DNA of 64,000 nucleotides from Hydra vulgaris. Taxonomy: Eukaryota > Cnidaria > Hydrozoa > Anthoathecata > Hydridae. The stretch's first letter is position 1. Each line of letters opens with the position of its first letter. The notes beneath the pieces are model-generated. The model had not been told where the DNA came from, made no database searches, and saw only the letters and a program-made list of their open reading frames with translations. The stretch covers positions 8,107,501 to 8,171,500 of the forward strand of contig NC_088934.1 in the NCBI RefSeq assembly GCF_038396675.1, read 5' to 3'. The position numbers were made by a program, and so were the translations under genes. Below, one piece after another: positions 17,746-47,117 of the stretch.

Positions 17746-19446
17746 TTAATCTTCATTTTTAGCATTTTCGCTATTTGTGGGAATATCTTCTGAATTTTTA
17801 GGGATCTTTGGGTCAGTAATTTTTCGTAAAAGAAATTTTTTTTTACCAATGAGTCTATCAAAAATCAGCTTTAAACCAATAAAAGTTGCGATAGAGCAAC
17901 AAAAGCAACCGCACATTATATAAAAAATTATAGATACTGGCATACGTGATCCCAAAGTGCACAAAAAGGACCAGAATGGAAAATTAGCTGCTTTTAAGAC
18001 AGTATATATTTGTTGATATTTGTTTTTTTTCATATTACCGACTGCCCAACAATGTAAATATTTTTCTTTAGTGTACAAGCCGTATATTAAAATTATCAGA
18101 TTAAAAGTACTTGAAAAAAAAATTACCAAAGAGGTAACAAGAATGCTTTTTTTGGCATCACGATTTTGATTAGTAGCGTAAACAACCACCATGTTTCCAG
18201 CAAGTGGTGTTAAACATGCTAAAGCAAGTGAAATCTTTTGCAGATAAACTATTATGACATTTGTTGACTTAAACAAATGCAAGACACCATGGTTCGAATA
18301 CCATAAAGTTGAAATAATTGCAAAAATTCCAAAGTAAATAAAGAAATCTTTTTTCATATGCATTAATTCGTACGTCAAACCGTGATTTAAAACGTTTTGA
18401 TAAGTAGGAAATTCATCAATCGTAATGTCAAGAATTAAAATACAAGCAATTATTGCAAAGGCAGCGTCACTCATGGCAGTGACGCGTTCTATTGAAATAT
18501 TTCCTTTTGTGAAATGAAAAAAGAACGGAGATTTTTCTATTTTTGTTTGTGATACTGTATGACGTCTGATATAAAAAAAAAGTTTTTTAAATGGTGGCAT
18601 CAGAATTATCATGGCAATGAATACCCAAGCTAATACGTGGTTGAGTAAGATAAATAAACTGCCCATTATAAAAAATACAATATTAAAAATGTTTTGTAAA
18701 CATAGCATATTTCGAAACCTGCGTCGTTCAACTTTTGTCCAAGTATGCAATTCAACGTGTAAAATACTGGGATGTTCCATAGAATAAAATAAAACACACA
18801 AATCAGTAAGTTCGATTAGCGCCAGTAACGAGCATGTAATCCAAACAGAAATTGTTTCTCCAGGATAATGTCCTTCGAGTGACAAAGAAAACGGTAACAA
18901 CGACGTTAGAAACATTGTGAACATAGTCATAAAAAGCAGAATGTCGTCAACTCTTTTTATGAGCAACGATCTTATATTGATAGATTCCCATATCGTTAAT
19001 ACAACTAAGTAACCAAGTAAAAACATAATAAACTCCGTTCGATTTTCGTATAAATGATCGCCTAAAAAATGATTAGGGCTTATATCTTTTATTTTCCTCA
19101 ATGGAATTACTAAAAATGTTGCGCAAGTAGCCATCATGGCATCAACATAACCAAGCATTCGTTGTGGCGATACGATGTCGCCGCGATGAAGTAAATCAGG
19201 CATTATGTCATTCACATGAATATCATAATGTTCTTCCAGATGTTTTAACTTATTTTTATAGTTAACTAACGCCATTGAAACTTCATTCTGATCTTCTGAA
19301 AGAACTTTTCGTTTCTTAAAAAGACGTAAGAATATTTTAGGTTCCGATTTTGTTAAGTTGTTCTTCTGTATAAGTGATTCGTCAAGATTTTCATCGAAAT
19401 TTGTCGAGTTAGTAGTTTTGGAAAAAGATTCGTTTTCTGATACCAT
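17746..19446 (-). CDS. TMEM175-like lysosomal channel protein, paralogue 1
   Basis: A 566-residue protein in one uninterrupted reading frame. TMEM175 proteins are endolysosomal K+/H+ channels made of two 6-TM repeats, each starting with an R-x-x-x-F-S-D type TM1. Here repeat 1 has RMLGYVDAMMATCATFLVIP (about residues 98-117). Repeat 2 has RVTAMSDAAFAIIACILILD (about residues 318-337), followed by YFGIFAIISTLWYSNHG, which matches the family segment YFGSFATxxLLWFxHH. About twelve hydrophobic segments are visible. Cytosolic ends are polar; the N-terminal 60 residues are poorly conserved. Compared with human TMEM175 the F of each FSD is Y or M, and the gate position after MMA is Thr. The upstream ATG at 19446 is the first in frame. 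A sister gene in the same orientation lies at 45408-47117. Intronless structure suggests retroposition or ancestral intron loss. Confidence 0.88.
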   Translation of the reverse strand: MVSENESFSKTTNSTNFDENLDESLIQKNNLTKSEPKIFLRLFKKRKVLSEDQNEVSMALVNYKNKLKHLEEHYDIHVNDIMPDLLHRGDIVSPQRMLGYVDAMMATCATFLVIPLRKIKDISPNHFLGDHLYENRTEFIMFLLGYLVVLTIWESINIRSLLIKRVDDILLFMTMFTMFLTSLLPFSLSLEGHYPGETISVWITCSLLALIELTDLCVLFYSMEHPSILHVELHTWTKVERRRFRNMLCLQNIFNIVFFIMGSLFILLNHVLAWVFIAMIILMPPFKKLFFYIRRHTVSQTKIEKSPFFFHFTKGNISIERVTAMSDAAFAIIACILILDITIDEFPTYQNVLNHGLTYELMHMKKDFFIYFGIFAIISTLWYSNHGVLHLFKSTNVIIVYLQKISLALACLTPLAGNMVVVYATNQNRDAKKSILVTSLVIFFSSTFNLIILIYGLYTKEKYLHCWAVGNMKKNKYQQIYTVLKAANFPFWSFLCTLGSRMPVSIIFYIMCGCFCCSIATFIGLKLIFDRLIGKKKFLLRKITDPKIPKNSEDIPTNSENAKNED

Positions 19447-28317: not shown

Positions 28318-30205
<1,888 letters not shown>

Positions 30206-30399
30206 TGATTTTTTAATTACCTAATGTAGTTGATGCAACTTCCTGGCTGCAAAATACTTCAGTTATTACATAATTAATTATAACAATTCCCAACTTCCTG
30301 TGAAATAATTTTTCTATAATTTAAATTTTTTGATGTTAAGACATTCAGATGAACCTACTGATGGAGAAACATGCTGTTGAAGTCAATTACAAATTAAAT

Positions 30400-31069
30400 A
30401 AGTGTTTTTACTAATTTAACATAAAAGCCAGAAAAGAGTTTTGTCATAAATTTTATGCATGGACAAATAAGAAACGGGACACAGTTTTGTGGACAGATGA
30501 ATCTAAATTTAATATCTTTGGATCAGATGGTAAGCAGTTTTTCCGCAGACTACCAAATAAAAATACCTACATTACACTAAAAAAACACTTAAATTTGGTG
30601 CTGGATGCATTATGGTGTGGGAATGTTTCTCGTCATCTGGTATTGGTTTAATAACAGACACTATGACAGCTAATATTTATACTAAAATACTTAAAAAAAT
30701 AATGCTTCCTTATGCTGAGGATAATATGCCGCGGCTCAAGATATTTCAACAAGATAACGATCCAAAACATACAGCTTCTATCACAAAGAGATGGTTCCAA
30801 AAAAATGGTATAAGACAATTGGACTGGCCAGCATAATCGCTAGATTTAAATCCATTAGAAAATTTATGGAAAATTGTAAAGGATGAGGTTACAAAACAAA
30901 AGCCTCGGAACATAAGGGATCTGTGGGAGGCTGTGAAAACATCATGGTACGCTATTCCACTATCAATATGCCATAAATTGGTCAACAGCATGGCCAAAAG
31001 ACTAATCGAAATTAAAAAAATAAAGGACATGCAACAAATATTAGGCAATTTCTGTGAATATTATATTTA
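30400..31069 (+). pseudogene. Second Tc1-like transposase, catalytic part only
   Basis: Catalytic core in shifting frames: KRDTVLWTDESKFNIFGSDG (first D, about 30480-30530), MVWECFSSSGIGLI, FQQDNDPKHTASITKRWFQK (second D), then after an in-frame TAA, SLDLNPLENLW (third residue E), ending near 31069. The N-terminal DNA-binding half is missing and no terminal repeat was found on either side, so only a fragment remains between two TA arrays. It is a different subfamily from the element to its left. Confidence 0.82.
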
Positions 31070-31439
31070 GTGATTGATAAACCTTTTTAGAAAAAAAGAA
31101 AAGTTTGTTTTTGTTCTTAATTGTTTTTAATTTTTTTTGTTAAATACTTGTTTTATTAACATTGAATTTTCTTGATTTTTTTACATATACGATCAAATTA
31201 ACAATTTCTGTATTTATTATTTTTTTCCAGTAAATTTCCGTCTACTTTAAACAAAATTGTTAGTAACGTGAGGAAAATTGAAAAAAACTTCGTAATTTTT
31301 AAAAAAATATGATTTTTAACAATAAAGTTTATAAAAACATAAAAATAAATATCAGTTAACATCAATTGCTGTGAATAAAAAGCATTTTTCTAAATGTTTA
31401 GTCTATTTTTTTTTTTTCACCACTATATATACATATTCA

Positions 31440-31996
<557 letters not shown>

Positions 31997-32239
31997 CACA
32001 GTATCGGACAAAACGAGTGCAACCAAATAATGCTAATTTAGTTTCTTTATATAAAAGTGATGCATTTTTTCAATTTAGAGAAATAACTATGTAACTGTTT
32101 AGAGACAAAGTTTTTCAAGTTTCTTCAAGAAAATTAATAAACTAATCAAAAGTATTAAAAAAAGTTGATTTCCTTCTGGACAAAACAAGTGCAACTCGAC
32201 AAAATGTTGACCAAGCTGTATTTCGCTATTAATATTTCG

Positions 32240-33082
32240 TGGCGAATTCTTTGTTGTCGATCACAGCCTTGCATCTTCGAGGCATAGATTCGATCAGGTG
32301 ATCAATAAAACTTTGTGGAATTGCTGCCCAGGCTTTTTGGATTTGTTCAGTTGATCCTTATTACGAACACCTTCACAATTAATTCTGCGGTTGACGATCT
32401 CACACAGGTTCTCGATAGGGTTGAGATCCAGCGATTAAGGCGGCCAATCCATCACCGATAGGTTGTCTTGAAACCACTGCTTGACTACTTTTGCAGTGTG
32501 TTTCGGATCGTTGTCTTGCTGAAAAACCCATTTTATTGGCATATTCCATTCAGCATGAGGGAACATAACATCTTTCAGGATACTTTTATACATGAAACGG
32601 TCCATTATTCCATCGTTTCGATGTATTGGACCTAGACCGTTAGCAGAAAAACACCCCCAGACCATTATATTGCCTCCACCATGCTTCACGGTCTTATGGC
32701 AGTAACGTAAATCGAGGCGTTTTCCGGCCGGTTGACGTACACGGCAAATGCCATCGCTCCCAATGATGTTGAACTTCGATTCATCACTGAACAGGACAGT
32801 TCGCCAGATATCGACTGATGATATCCAGAGATCCTTCTTGACGGATCTGACGATCATAGAATCCTCTCTAGAAGTGGTGGAACGCGGTCTTCCACCTTTG
32901 TTATCTGCTGCCAACTTCCCCGTAGAACGATATTTGGAACATAGTCTTGATACGGTCCATTTTTTCACGCGATATTTATCACAAATACTTTTTTGTGACA
33001 TTCCACTTACGTAATCGTCAATAATATTCTTTCTCAGTTTCAATCCAAGACTGTCGGAAGCCATTTTCGCACTTGAAGTCAT
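32240..33082 (-). pseudogene. Tc1-like transposase with internal in-frame deletion
   Basis: The 215-codon frame (33082-32435) begins MTSSAKMASDSLGLKLRKNI; a second ATG gives MASDS. The helix-turn-helix region (SQKSICDKYRVKKWTVSRLC), GGRPRSTTS and RSVKKDLWISSVDI are intact. The protein then jumps directly to WRTVLFSDESKFN. About 60 residues usual for the family between these points are missing, without a frame change. First D is in FSDES and second D in FQQDNDPKHTA. A TAA follows DWPP, and the third residue E (LNPIENL) lies just after it; further frameshifts follow. As it stands it encodes a DNA-binding region with an incomplete catalytic triad. Confidence 0.88.
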
Positions 33083-33315
33083 AAAAATAATAAAAATAAA
33101 TAATCACGCTTCTCAAGGCTTACCATCTTACATTTACCTTGTGATGATACAATAATGCTCTGTGGAACACAACGTCTTGGTTGGATGTGGACTGTATTGA
33201 TGTAATGAAACACTTGTTGTATTTCACTTCTTGTATTGATGTTCTTCGATAAAACACTTTGATAAAACTCACTTCGATAAACTGTCTTGATAAAACTGAC
33301 TGATTGACTTGATAT

Positions 33316-33356
33316 ACTAACTGAATTACATGTCGATTTACATGTCTCTTATATAG
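33316..33356 (-). promoter_or_regulatory. TATA box and initiator of the Tc1-like transposase
   Basis: The minus strand has TATATAAG at 33355-33348 and TCAGTT (arthropod-type initiator) with its A at 33322. The spacing, 33 nt, is normal for TATA to start site. The predicted leader of about 240 nt is A-rich with repeated GTTTTATCRA-type units. Promoter function is inferred. Confidence 0.6.
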
Positions 33357-33378
33357 TAAAATGAACCTGTGTGAACCT

Positions 33379-33560
33379 GTTCTGGAAGATTCTAGATGCT
33401 TCTTTTCGATGCTTCTGGAAGCTTCTGGATGCGTCTGGATGCTTCTGAATGTTTCTCAATATTTCTGAATGCTACTGGATGCTTCCAGATGCTTCTTCTG
33501 GAAACTTCTGGAAGCTTCTGCATGCTTCTGGAAACTTCTGGAAACTTCTGGATACTTCCT
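33379..33560 (-). promoter_or_regulatory. Array of heat-shock elements
   Basis: 10-bp units of the form GCTTCTGGAA. TTCTGGAA occurs about six times (near 33380, 33413, 33497, 33507, 33527 and 33537), with degenerate TTCTGGAT or TTCTGAAT units between. The best run is TTCTGGAAGATTCTAGA at 33380-33396. This is the alternating nTTCnnGAAn 5-bp pattern bound by heat-shock factor trimers. The array ends about 25 bp upstream of the TATA box, on the correct side for the leftward transposase. No protein is encoded; frames through it are repeat artefacts. Confidence 0.7.
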
Positions 33561-33677
33561 TTAATTATTAAAAAACTGTTTGCTGTGGTAGTATAGTTCG
33601 TTTTGTTTTTAAGACATGTAAAATTAACACTTTTTAGCATTGTTCGATAATGGTTGCAAATGTTTTGTCCAATACTG

Positions 33678-33681
33678 TATA

Positions 33682-33771
<90 letters not shown>

Positions 33772-45407: not shown

Positions 45408-47117
45408 TCATTGTTCGTCAGTTGTTTCAACGTTAATAACGACATCGGTAAAACGATTGTGCAAAATGAATTTTTCTCGTCCAATTAGTCGAATAAAAAT
45501 TAATTTTAAAATAATAAATGTTAAAATAGAACCGCAAAAAGAAACACACATAATGTAAAATACTACTGATTCGGGCAAAAACGAACCCATAGTACACGCT
45601 AAAGACCAAAACGGGATATTTGCTGTTTTAAGAAAAGTATATTTCTGCTGATATTTATTCAGGTTTTTGTTACCAACGGCCCAGGTGTGTAAAAATTTGT
45701 CTTTTGTATAATATCCATATAACATGATCATTAAGTTAAAAAAACTGGAAAAGAATATTACCATGGAAGACATCAGAATGCTTTTCTGAGCATTGGTATT
45801 CCCATCACTAGCAAAAGAAATTACCATGTTTCCTGCAAGTGGTGTCAAACATGCAAACGCAAGTGAAAATTTTTGGAAATAAATCACAATGACATTTGAA
45901 GTTTTAAACAAATGAAGAACACCATGGTTTGAGTACCAAAGCATAGACACAACGGCAAATATTCCAAAATAAATGTAGAACTCTTTTCTCATATGGATTA
46001 GTTCGTAGGATAACCCGTGCTTTTTTACGTTTTCATATGTCGGGAATTCTTCGACAGTAATGTCAAGAATTAAGATACAAGCAATAATTGCAAAAGCAGC
46101 ATCACTCATGGCGGTAATTCGTTCGTTTGATATGTTTCCTTTAGTCAAGTGAAAAAAAAACTGAGATTTTTCCATTTTTGTATGTGATATTGTATGCCGT
46201 TTAACATAAAAATAAAGTTTCCTAAGTGACGGCATTAGCACCAGCATTGAAATAAACACCCATGCTAATGCGTGACTAAGCAAAATTGAAAAGCTTCCCA
46301 AAATAATAAATAATATATTTACTAAATTATTTAAAAATAGTACGTTTCGAAATCGGCGTTGCTCGGGTTTTGTCCAAGTATGTAACTCGAAGTGTAAAAC
46401 GCTGGGTTGTTCCATAGCATACCAGACAATTAAAAAATCTGTTAATTCAAGTATTGCAAGCAGTGAACAACTTAACCAAACCGAAATCTGTTCTCCAGGA
46501 TAGTGCCCTTCCAATGACAAAGAAAAAGGCAGAAGAGAAGTGATAAACATTGAAAACATTGTCATGAAAAGCAGCATGTCGTCAACTCTTTTAATAAACA
46601 AAGAACGTATATTGATAGATTCCCATATTGTTAACACAACTAAGTATCCAAGAAAAAACATGACAAACTCCATTCTATTTACATATACATATTCTGCTAA
46701 GGAAGAACCCGGTGTCATCTTCTTAAAATTTCTCAATGGTATTACCAAAAATGTAGCACAGGTTGCCATTAAAGCATCGGCGTAGCCAAGCATTCGTTGA
46801 GGCGAAACTAAATCGCCACGATGAAGAGATTCTGGCATAATTTCATTCATATGAAAATCATAATGCTCATCGAGATGTTTCAACTTCTCTCTGCTATCCA
46901 TAGATAGCAATGAAGCTGTTCGTTTTTTTCTTACAGTGTCTATGCTGAATTCTTTATCAACACTTAAATTTATATTAGGCTCGGAAGCAGAACGATTTAA
47001 CGTATGTACAGATAACGAGCTGCTAGTTGCTTCTTTAATAGACGTAATGCTGTTAACGTTTTCGTTTTTTACTCCAATTTCCATATTTGAACTTTCAAAT
47101 GTAATTTTTAGAACCAC
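45408..47117 (-). CDS. TMEM175-like lysosomal channel protein, paralogue 2
   Basis: A 569-residue protein in one frame, clearly paralogous to 17746-19446 over the whole membrane part. Repeat 1 has RMLGYADALMATCATFLVIP; repeat 2 has RITAMSDAAFAIIACILILD, then YFGIFAVVSMLWYSNHG. The segment MMPES-LHRGDLVSPQ before repeat 1 and the loop SLSLEGHYPGE are nearly identical in both copies, while the first 80 residues differ. About twelve TM segments are seen. The start is either 47117 or the internal Met at about residue 12 (MEIGVKN). The stop is TGA, with an AATAAA on the minus strand only about 12 bases later (45396-45391), which may be too close to serve. Intronless, same orientation as its sister. 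Confidence 0.88.
   Translation of the reverse strand: MVLKITFESSNMEIGVKNENVNSITSIKEATSSSLSVHTLNRSASEPNINLSVDKEFSIDTVRKKRTASLLSMDSREKLKHLDEHYDFHMNEIMPESLHRGDLVSPQRMLGYADALMATCATFLVIPLRNFKKMTPGSSLAEYVYVNRMEFVMFFLGYLVVLTIWESINIRSLFIKRVDDMLLFMTMFSMFITSLLPFSLSLEGHYPGEQISVWLSCSLLAILELTDFLIVWYAMEQPSVLHFELHTWTKPEQRRFRNVLFLNNLVNILFIILGSFSILLSHALAWVFISMLVLMPSLRKLYFYVKRHTISHTKMEKSQFFFHLTKGNISNERITAMSDAAFAIIACILILDITVEEFPTYENVKKHGLSYELIHMRKEFYIYFGIFAVVSMLWYSNHGVLHLFKTSNVIVIYFQKFSLAFACLTPLAGNMVISFASDGNTNAQKSILMSSMVIFFSSFFNLMIMLYGYYTKDKFLHTWAVGNKNLNKYQQKYTFLKTANIPFWSLACTMGSFLPESVVFYIMCVSFCGSILTFIILKLIFIRLIGREKFILHNRFTDVVINVETTDEQ

Follow-up and report, generated by a model that had tools for sequence, protein, structure and literature searches.

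A candidate heat-shock-factor-responsive promoter in a Tc1-like transposon family of Hydra vulgaris

Could a mobile element of the Tc1/mariner kind place its own transposase under the heat-shock control of its animal host? The question is raised by a locus of Hydra vulgaris, in a stretch of 64,000 nucleotides which we call the window. There, a minus-strand transposase frame is preceded by a 10-bp array that resembles a series of heat-shock elements (HSEs), the sites recognized by heat-shock factor (HSF). We asked what the element is, whether the array fits HSEs better than chance, whether it belongs to the whole family, and which other meaning it might have.

The transposon and its window copy

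The element is a Tc1-like DD34E transposon of Hydra, of the cut-and-paste type and with IR/DR ends, and this supports the Tc1-like identity proposed in the initial annotation. Its parts in the window, those of the promoter being given further on, are the following:

31998..33682 (ends approximate), minus strand: Tc1-like element, window copy, delimited by end alignment and inverted-repeat matches
32006..32023: core of the left outer terminal repeat, GGACAAAACGAGTGCAAC, the same in copy L014
32178..32195: left inner direct repeat, GGACAAAACAAGTGCAAC, exact in the window copy and degenerate in L014
32435..33082, minus strand: remnant transposase frame, 215 aa, closed by an in-frame TAA ahead of SLDLNPIE
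32806..32808: junction at which the window copy lacks about 166 bp (about 55 codons) of other copies, from the protein alignment and the genome copies
33083..33322, minus strand: inferred 5' untranslated region, from A+1 to ATG, 240 bases, drawn from its similarity among copies (2.1% divergence) and the predicted start
33574..33577: junction at which the window copy lacks about 165 bp of other copies, among them the right inner direct repeat, from the genome copies
33653..33670: core of the right outer terminal repeat, GGACAAAACATTTGCAAC on the minus strand, the same in L014 and L007

Read on the minus strand, the order is outer repeat, array, TATA box, initiator, leader, transposase frame, inner repeat (32,178) and outer repeat (32,006); the positions of the inverted repeats bear out the earlier claim that the array lies inside the termini. 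The outer repeats are present as terminal inverted repeats at both ends of the window copy and of L014, and the left inner direct repeat sits 172 bp inside the left outer one, which is the IR/DR arrangement. The right inner direct repeat, exact in L014 and L007, is absent from the window copy (these being the copies examined), because it was removed by the deletion of about 165 bp that adjoins the array. The same ends are found in genome relatives of the window copy. The latter is inserted in a TA microsatellite; in the window copy and in L014 the element ends abut TA, yet they do so within TA microsatellites, so that a TA target-site duplication is indistinguishable from the repeat.

The remnant frame has matches to Pfam HTH_28 (E=4.4e-5) and to DDE_3 (E=6.8e-4), neither of which reaches the curated cut-off. 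In the alignment the full-length relatives measure about 335–341 residues, and the 55 or so residues missing from the window transposase fall between its DNA-binding and catalytic parts. In P0001, 34 residues separate, as read by eye on the alignment, the D of QQDNDP from the E of NPIE, two residues which we take to belong to the DD34E catalytic triad. The window copy itself does not show this spacing: its frame ends before the E, the TAA cutting off the SLDLNPIE motif that carries the third catalytic residue. Having lost about 165 bp at each of two places, and with a stop ahead of this residue, the window copy is a dead member of its family. At most it could serve as a promoter or an enhancer, or be mobilized by the transposase of other copies, and one of its inner repeats is missing.

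Two degraded Tc1/mariner-like remnants, recognized by eye from their translations, lie on the plus strand beside TA microsatellites (29460-30060 and 30205-31420); neither holds an HSE run of three or more units. The element is flanked on either side by minus-strand frames, 17746-19446 (566 aa) and 45408-47117 (569 aa), that are 65% identical and both match Pfam TMEM175 over the cut-off; their products are putative paralogous endolysosomal potassium channels. Rfam and tRNA scans of the 64-kb window gave no match.

The promoter and its 10-bp array

We counted as a perfect HSE run any series in which GAA and TTC alternate strictly every 5 bp. The features upstream of the transposase, all on the minus strand, are these:

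33319..33325, minus strand: initiator-like TTCAGTT with A+1 at 33322, from the sequence; the genomic core-promoter 36-mer ends in ATTCAG
33348..33355, minus strand: TATA box TATATAAG, its first T 33 nt upstream of A+1
33380..33558, minus strand: whole 10-bp HSE-like array, 179 bp, upstream promoter region of the transposase, from repeat and HSE scans
33380..33392, minus strand: proximal HSE GAATCTTCCAGAA, three perfect units (HSE scan), intact in 24 of 30 position-ordered copies
33413..33425, minus strand: HSE GAAGCTTCCAGAA, three perfect units (HSE scan)
33496..33518, minus strand: HSE GAAGCTTCCAGAAGTTTCCAGAA, five perfect units (HSE scan)
33526..33548, minus strand: HSE GAAGTTTCCAGAAGTTTCCAGAA, five perfect units (HSE scan)

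The array has a period of 10, 17.3 copies and 74% matches, and it contains four perfect runs: two have five units each, the other two have three. Contiguous inverted nGAAn units, three or more in a row, do stand near the element's own promoter. Outside the array, the remaining 63,818 bases of the window contain no run of three or more units. The strict three-unit motif matches eight times in the 64 kb, every time inside the array, and matches at 8 of 9 bases number 51, of which 15 are inside it. The initial annotation had described an initiator and a TATA box at 33-nt spacing, a 10-bp array upstream of the transposase and a unit repeated about six times: the first T does lie 33 nt upstream of 33322, the array is found at 33380-33558, and TTCTGGAA occurs exactly six times within it. 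By contrast, the run held to be the best has only three perfect units, and the five-unit runs at 33496-33518 and 33526-33548 are better. Likewise the described alternation holds for TTC, present in 15 of the 17 units, but not for GAA, since the partner position reads GAA in only six units, GAT in six and something else in five.

As a control, the ten unit columns of the window array were shuffled in 20,000 trials. The strict three-unit count was matched by 13 of the column-permuted arrays (0.065%), the 8-of-9 count was attained in 0.105% and a run of at least five units in 0.96%. Thus the real array scores better as a series of HSEs than shuffled 10-bp repeats do.

We favor, at a probability of roughly 60%, the reading of the array as an HSF-responsive upstream promoter of the transposase, with which this Tc1 family would have expanded. 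A compact promoter, made of the initiator, the TATA box and the HSE array, which extends from about 58 to about 226 bp before the predicted start, would drive the transposase; trimers of the host HSF would be expected to bind the three- and five-unit sites under stress and thereby switch it on, so that cut-and-paste transposition and copy number would rise during heat or other proteotoxic stress. In short, heat could wake the element because HSE-type sites stand before its own gene. The heat-shock promoter had already been suggested for this locus; the Tc1-like identity given there holds, and so do two conditions set on it, the presence of the array in other copies, as sampled, and an HSE fit above that of shuffled repeats. 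HSF binding, heat induction, mobilization under heat and any effect on neighbouring genes are what we infer, and the spread of heat-responsive enhancers, also put forward there, would be a possible consequence.

Two other explanations bear directly on the composition of the array. It could be a 10-bp minisatellite that hitchhikes in the element, produced by slippage in an ancestral copy, with a coincidental likeness to HSEs and no role in heat. The absence of GAA from 11 of the 17 units agrees with such an origin, which nevertheless accounts poorly for a strict site number that only 13 of 20,000 column permutations matched. Alternatively the array might be a platform for another protein, either an ETS-type factor or the transposase itself, for which it would provide subterminal repeats. 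The core recognized by ETS-type factors is GGAA or GGAT, and GGA(A/T) occurs in 10 of the 17 units; besides, the left inner repeat of the window copy is preceded by TTCT and reads TTCTGGA, like array units. However TTC, with 15 units out of 17, is more constant than the ETS core, the inner repeat of L014 has no likeness to TTCTGGA, and the array is one-sided and separate from the outer and inner repeats, which are the likely transposase sites. Binding of a protein other than HSF thus appears very improbable to us.

The array is also open in frame, with an 82-aa ORF in the window, and the predicted proteins P0121, P0122 and P0123-P0127 read through it in other copies, together with their TATA box and leader. 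P0127 is the nr record 'uncharacterized protein LOC124814402 [Hydra vulgaris]' and carries the translated array and promoter; P0126 extends only to the proximal HSE site; in P0005, found by the transposase search, the array peptide is joined to the transposase, and this fusion is probably a gene model. In spite of the open frame and of these predictions, we rejected a coding role as the likely meaning of the array, because a stop-free 10-bp unit can be open in every frame and because the TATA box is downstream of it. The array-bearing predicted proteins were therefore used as independent evidence of other copies: on back-translation each of the eight allows for one three-unit HSE or more, and seven of them allow for a five-unit HSE, which is compatibility and not proof. 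P0128, from another source, shows a similar QKLPDASRSFQ repeat, which may come from an HSE-like array of 10-bp units in an unrelated flank; at E = 1.0 it was excluded as not significant.

The array in other copies and the age of the family

The genome (911.5 Mb in 15 contigs) contains the core-promoter 36-mer, with up to three mismatches, at 1,109 + 1,143 = 2,252 places, and the reversed pattern, taken as a control, at none in the same genome. All 41 best-matching copies carry at least one perfect HSE run. In 29 of them the array is aligned from its outer end: all 29 have at least two runs, and 24 have a run of at least five units, up to seven. This sample leaves out the window copy (L001) and four duplicates (L016 = L002, L018 = L014, L020 = L022, L023 = L021).

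Because best matches are a biased set, we also took the first 30 exact core-promoter matches along contig 1 in order of position, a sample which itself leans to young copies since an exact match over 36 bases is required. A perfect run occurs within 210 bases upstream in 29 of these 30 copies, at least two runs in 26 and a run of at least five units in 19; within 210 bases downstream there is none in any of the 30. The exception is L069, where another sequence replaces the array. No run of three or more units was found in the 82,500 other bases, rest of the element and flanks, around these 30 copies. As L041 and L051 are the same copy, the two samples together amount to 70 distinct copies. The search for the array in other copies, proposed in the initial annotation as a check, thus turned out positive in 41 of 41 best matches and 29 of 30 position-ordered copies, and these figures refute a local microsatellite expansion in the window copy. 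If the 29/30 rate holds for all 2,252 places, which is an extrapolation, the genome would contain about two thousand HSE-bearing promoters.

From one copy to another the positions of the runs differ mostly by tens, i.e. by whole units. Such whole-unit differences speak for a hitchhiking minisatellite, and so does an array that drifts as fast as its surroundings (see below); on the other hand 41 of 41 best-matching copies and 29 of 30 position-ordered ones have their runs directly upstream of the TATA box. On the whole, we consider a minisatellite whose HSE likeness is coincidental to be unlikely.

At two places (C8:59395378-59398567 and C8:38222176-38225825) two copies of the element meet tail to tail, separated by about 100-170 bases; in each pair one copy is truncated near query position 280.

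Is the family still active? A search with P0001 gave 27,529 first-look candidates, out of which 118 matches were scored; by hand count 26 of the 118 have no stop in the matched frame. Copies L013 and L067 have frames of 346 and 341 codons, all three catalytic motifs and perfect HSE runs. L067 is the only position-ordered copy with such a frame; the absence of a full transposase frame from the other 29 of 30 speaks against the HSF reading, as does the presence of GAA in only 6 of 17 units. In the promoter region, copies differ from their majority sequence by 1.3-3.3%, which points to a recent expansion of the family and is consistent with the report that TcMar-Tc1 is among the families enriched in Hydra strain AEP compared with strain 105 (PMC12220107). 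In the same report TcMar-Tc1 counts as active and is expressed in cell populations of Hydra; active families, it says, are expressed in i-cells at least (PMC12220107). This would suit a promoter bound by HSF but serving constitutive, germline or stem-cell expression, heat mobilization not being its role; however, in its accessible text the Hydra paper speaks at the level of TE families and not of this element (PMC12220107), and we find a role of this kind quite improbable.

Over 23 copies the divergence amounts to 2.1% for the array, 2.3% for the core promoter and 2.1% for the leader/5'UTR. Within the array it is 1.65% for the HSE bases, 2.2% for the spacers and 2.35% for the rest, a weak gap. 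(L024 and L025, both included in the 41 best-matching copies, are not in this set.) The array diverges like its surroundings, therefore its conservation reflects youth rather than shown selection; and because young copies drift neutrally, its divergence neither supports nor excludes a function. No transposase relative was confirmed in viral contigs or prokaryote genome contigs, and pattern searches besides the genome search confirmed none for the terminal repeat, array and core-promoter patterns.

Host promoters, known systems and significance

How do the promoters of the host chaperone genes compare? The genome has 44 HSP70-family matches, counted exon by exon, so that the genes are fewer. 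Twelve loci were fetched and seven upstream regions read, over at most 450 bases each. Three loci were left out as equal to others (L078 = L077, L080 = L079, L085 = L084), and so were L086, a more distant family member whose 900 bases preceding the coding motif contain no run of two or more units, and L088, which belongs to the L087 gene as one of its later exons. In none of the seven regions did we find an array comparable to that of the transposon, which tells against the HSF reading. Two of them (L082, L087) have a strict three-unit site, over 300 bases upstream from the coding motif; in L077, L079, L081 and L084 the only site is a one-mismatch HSE, GAAAAATCnAGAA, located between -344 and -377 relative to that motif, and L083 has neither form in the approximately 210 bases scanned. 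The one-mismatch form GAAnnATCnnGAA is also spelled by the GAT units of the array (GAAGCATCCAGAA, minus strand). An imperfect HSE form common to HSP70 promoters and to the transposon is suggestive only, since the HSP70 genes are paralogues. At 6 of the 12 loci a strict three-unit match falls inside the coding part, hardly a regulatory place; this too weighs against the HSF reading.

Another sequence, ACCCCCGT, is common to six of the seven regions (L077, L079, L081, L082, L083 and L084) and missing from L087; it stands 11-42 bases upstream of a TATA-like sequence, a place at which one could expect a proximal HSE. Besides, both HSP70 genes and transposase copies form pairs in the genome whose members score equally, are inverted relative to each other and lie 2-20 kb apart: for HSP70, C12:14343380(+)/14361926(-), C12:19597516(+)/19607754(-) and C10:38563722(-)/38578453(+); for the transposase, C8:34455448(+)/34466684(-), C15:37215476(-)/37227751(+) and C6:6689169(-)/6691587(+). 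These pairs are either inverted duplications or an assembly effect.

Sleeping Beauty-type Tc1 elements of the IR/DR kind have, like the Hydra element, a DD34E transposase and outer and inner repeats at each end; to our knowledge no HSE promoter is known in them. HSE-bearing mobile elements are already known from the literature. In the accessible text of the open-access literature we found no Tc1/mariner element, and no cnidarian transposon, described as having an HSE promoter. One close case is that of the Caenorhabditis Helitrons (Helitron1_CE and others), which carry HSEs, are bound by HSF-1 on heat shock and increase their transposase mRNA (PMC6927752). Like the Hydra element, Helitron1_CE is a DNA transposon with HSEs; but it is a rolling-circle element of another superfamily and phylum, and binding and induction were shown there, whereas for the Hydra element both are proposed from the sequence. 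ONSEN is heat-active, and genes near its new insertions gain a heat response (PMC6927752); it is, however, a copia LTR retrotransposon of a plant, Arabidopsis. In Cryptococcus, TCN3 and TCN12 have putative HSEs in their LTR and a raised mobilization at 37 C (PMC12810828); these are fungal LTR elements, with one or two putative sites as against the Hydra array.

Tc1/mariner copies that carry motifs of host factors are reported in C. elegans and C. briggsae (PMC8896005), yet the HSF-1 sites described there belong with Helitrons, and the examples given for Tc1/mariner concern other factors, e.g. LSL-1 (PMC8896005). The transcription of salmonid Tc1-like elements is raised by toxicity, stress and bacterial antigens (PMC1192797); the stimuli named there are handling, toxic compounds, cortisol and bacterial antigens, and the accessible text of that source does not name HSF (PMC1192797). 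In another cnidarian, Nematostella, GAANNTTCNNGAA was taken as the canonical HSE and the number of HSEs was compared with the heat response (PMC13104882, a preprint); this is the same strict motif as the one we applied to the Hydra array. For transposons with HSEs, that preprint points to Caenorhabditis and Drosophila (PMC13104882).

It is possible, though we would hold it doubtful, that a Tc1 element under host heat-shock control has seeded about two thousand HSF-binding promoters in this genome, and that heat mobilizes the element and recruits or titrates HSF genome-wide. If so, the seeded promoters may outnumber and outclass the HSEs of the host chaperone genes, and their copy number would be sufficient to reshape the places where HSF binds. 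Hydra would then offer a heat-controlled Tc1/mariner element in an animal laboratory model. This bears on the old idea that stress activates mobile elements through host factors, not through a loss of silencing, and on the question whether transposons give their host heat-responsive promoters.
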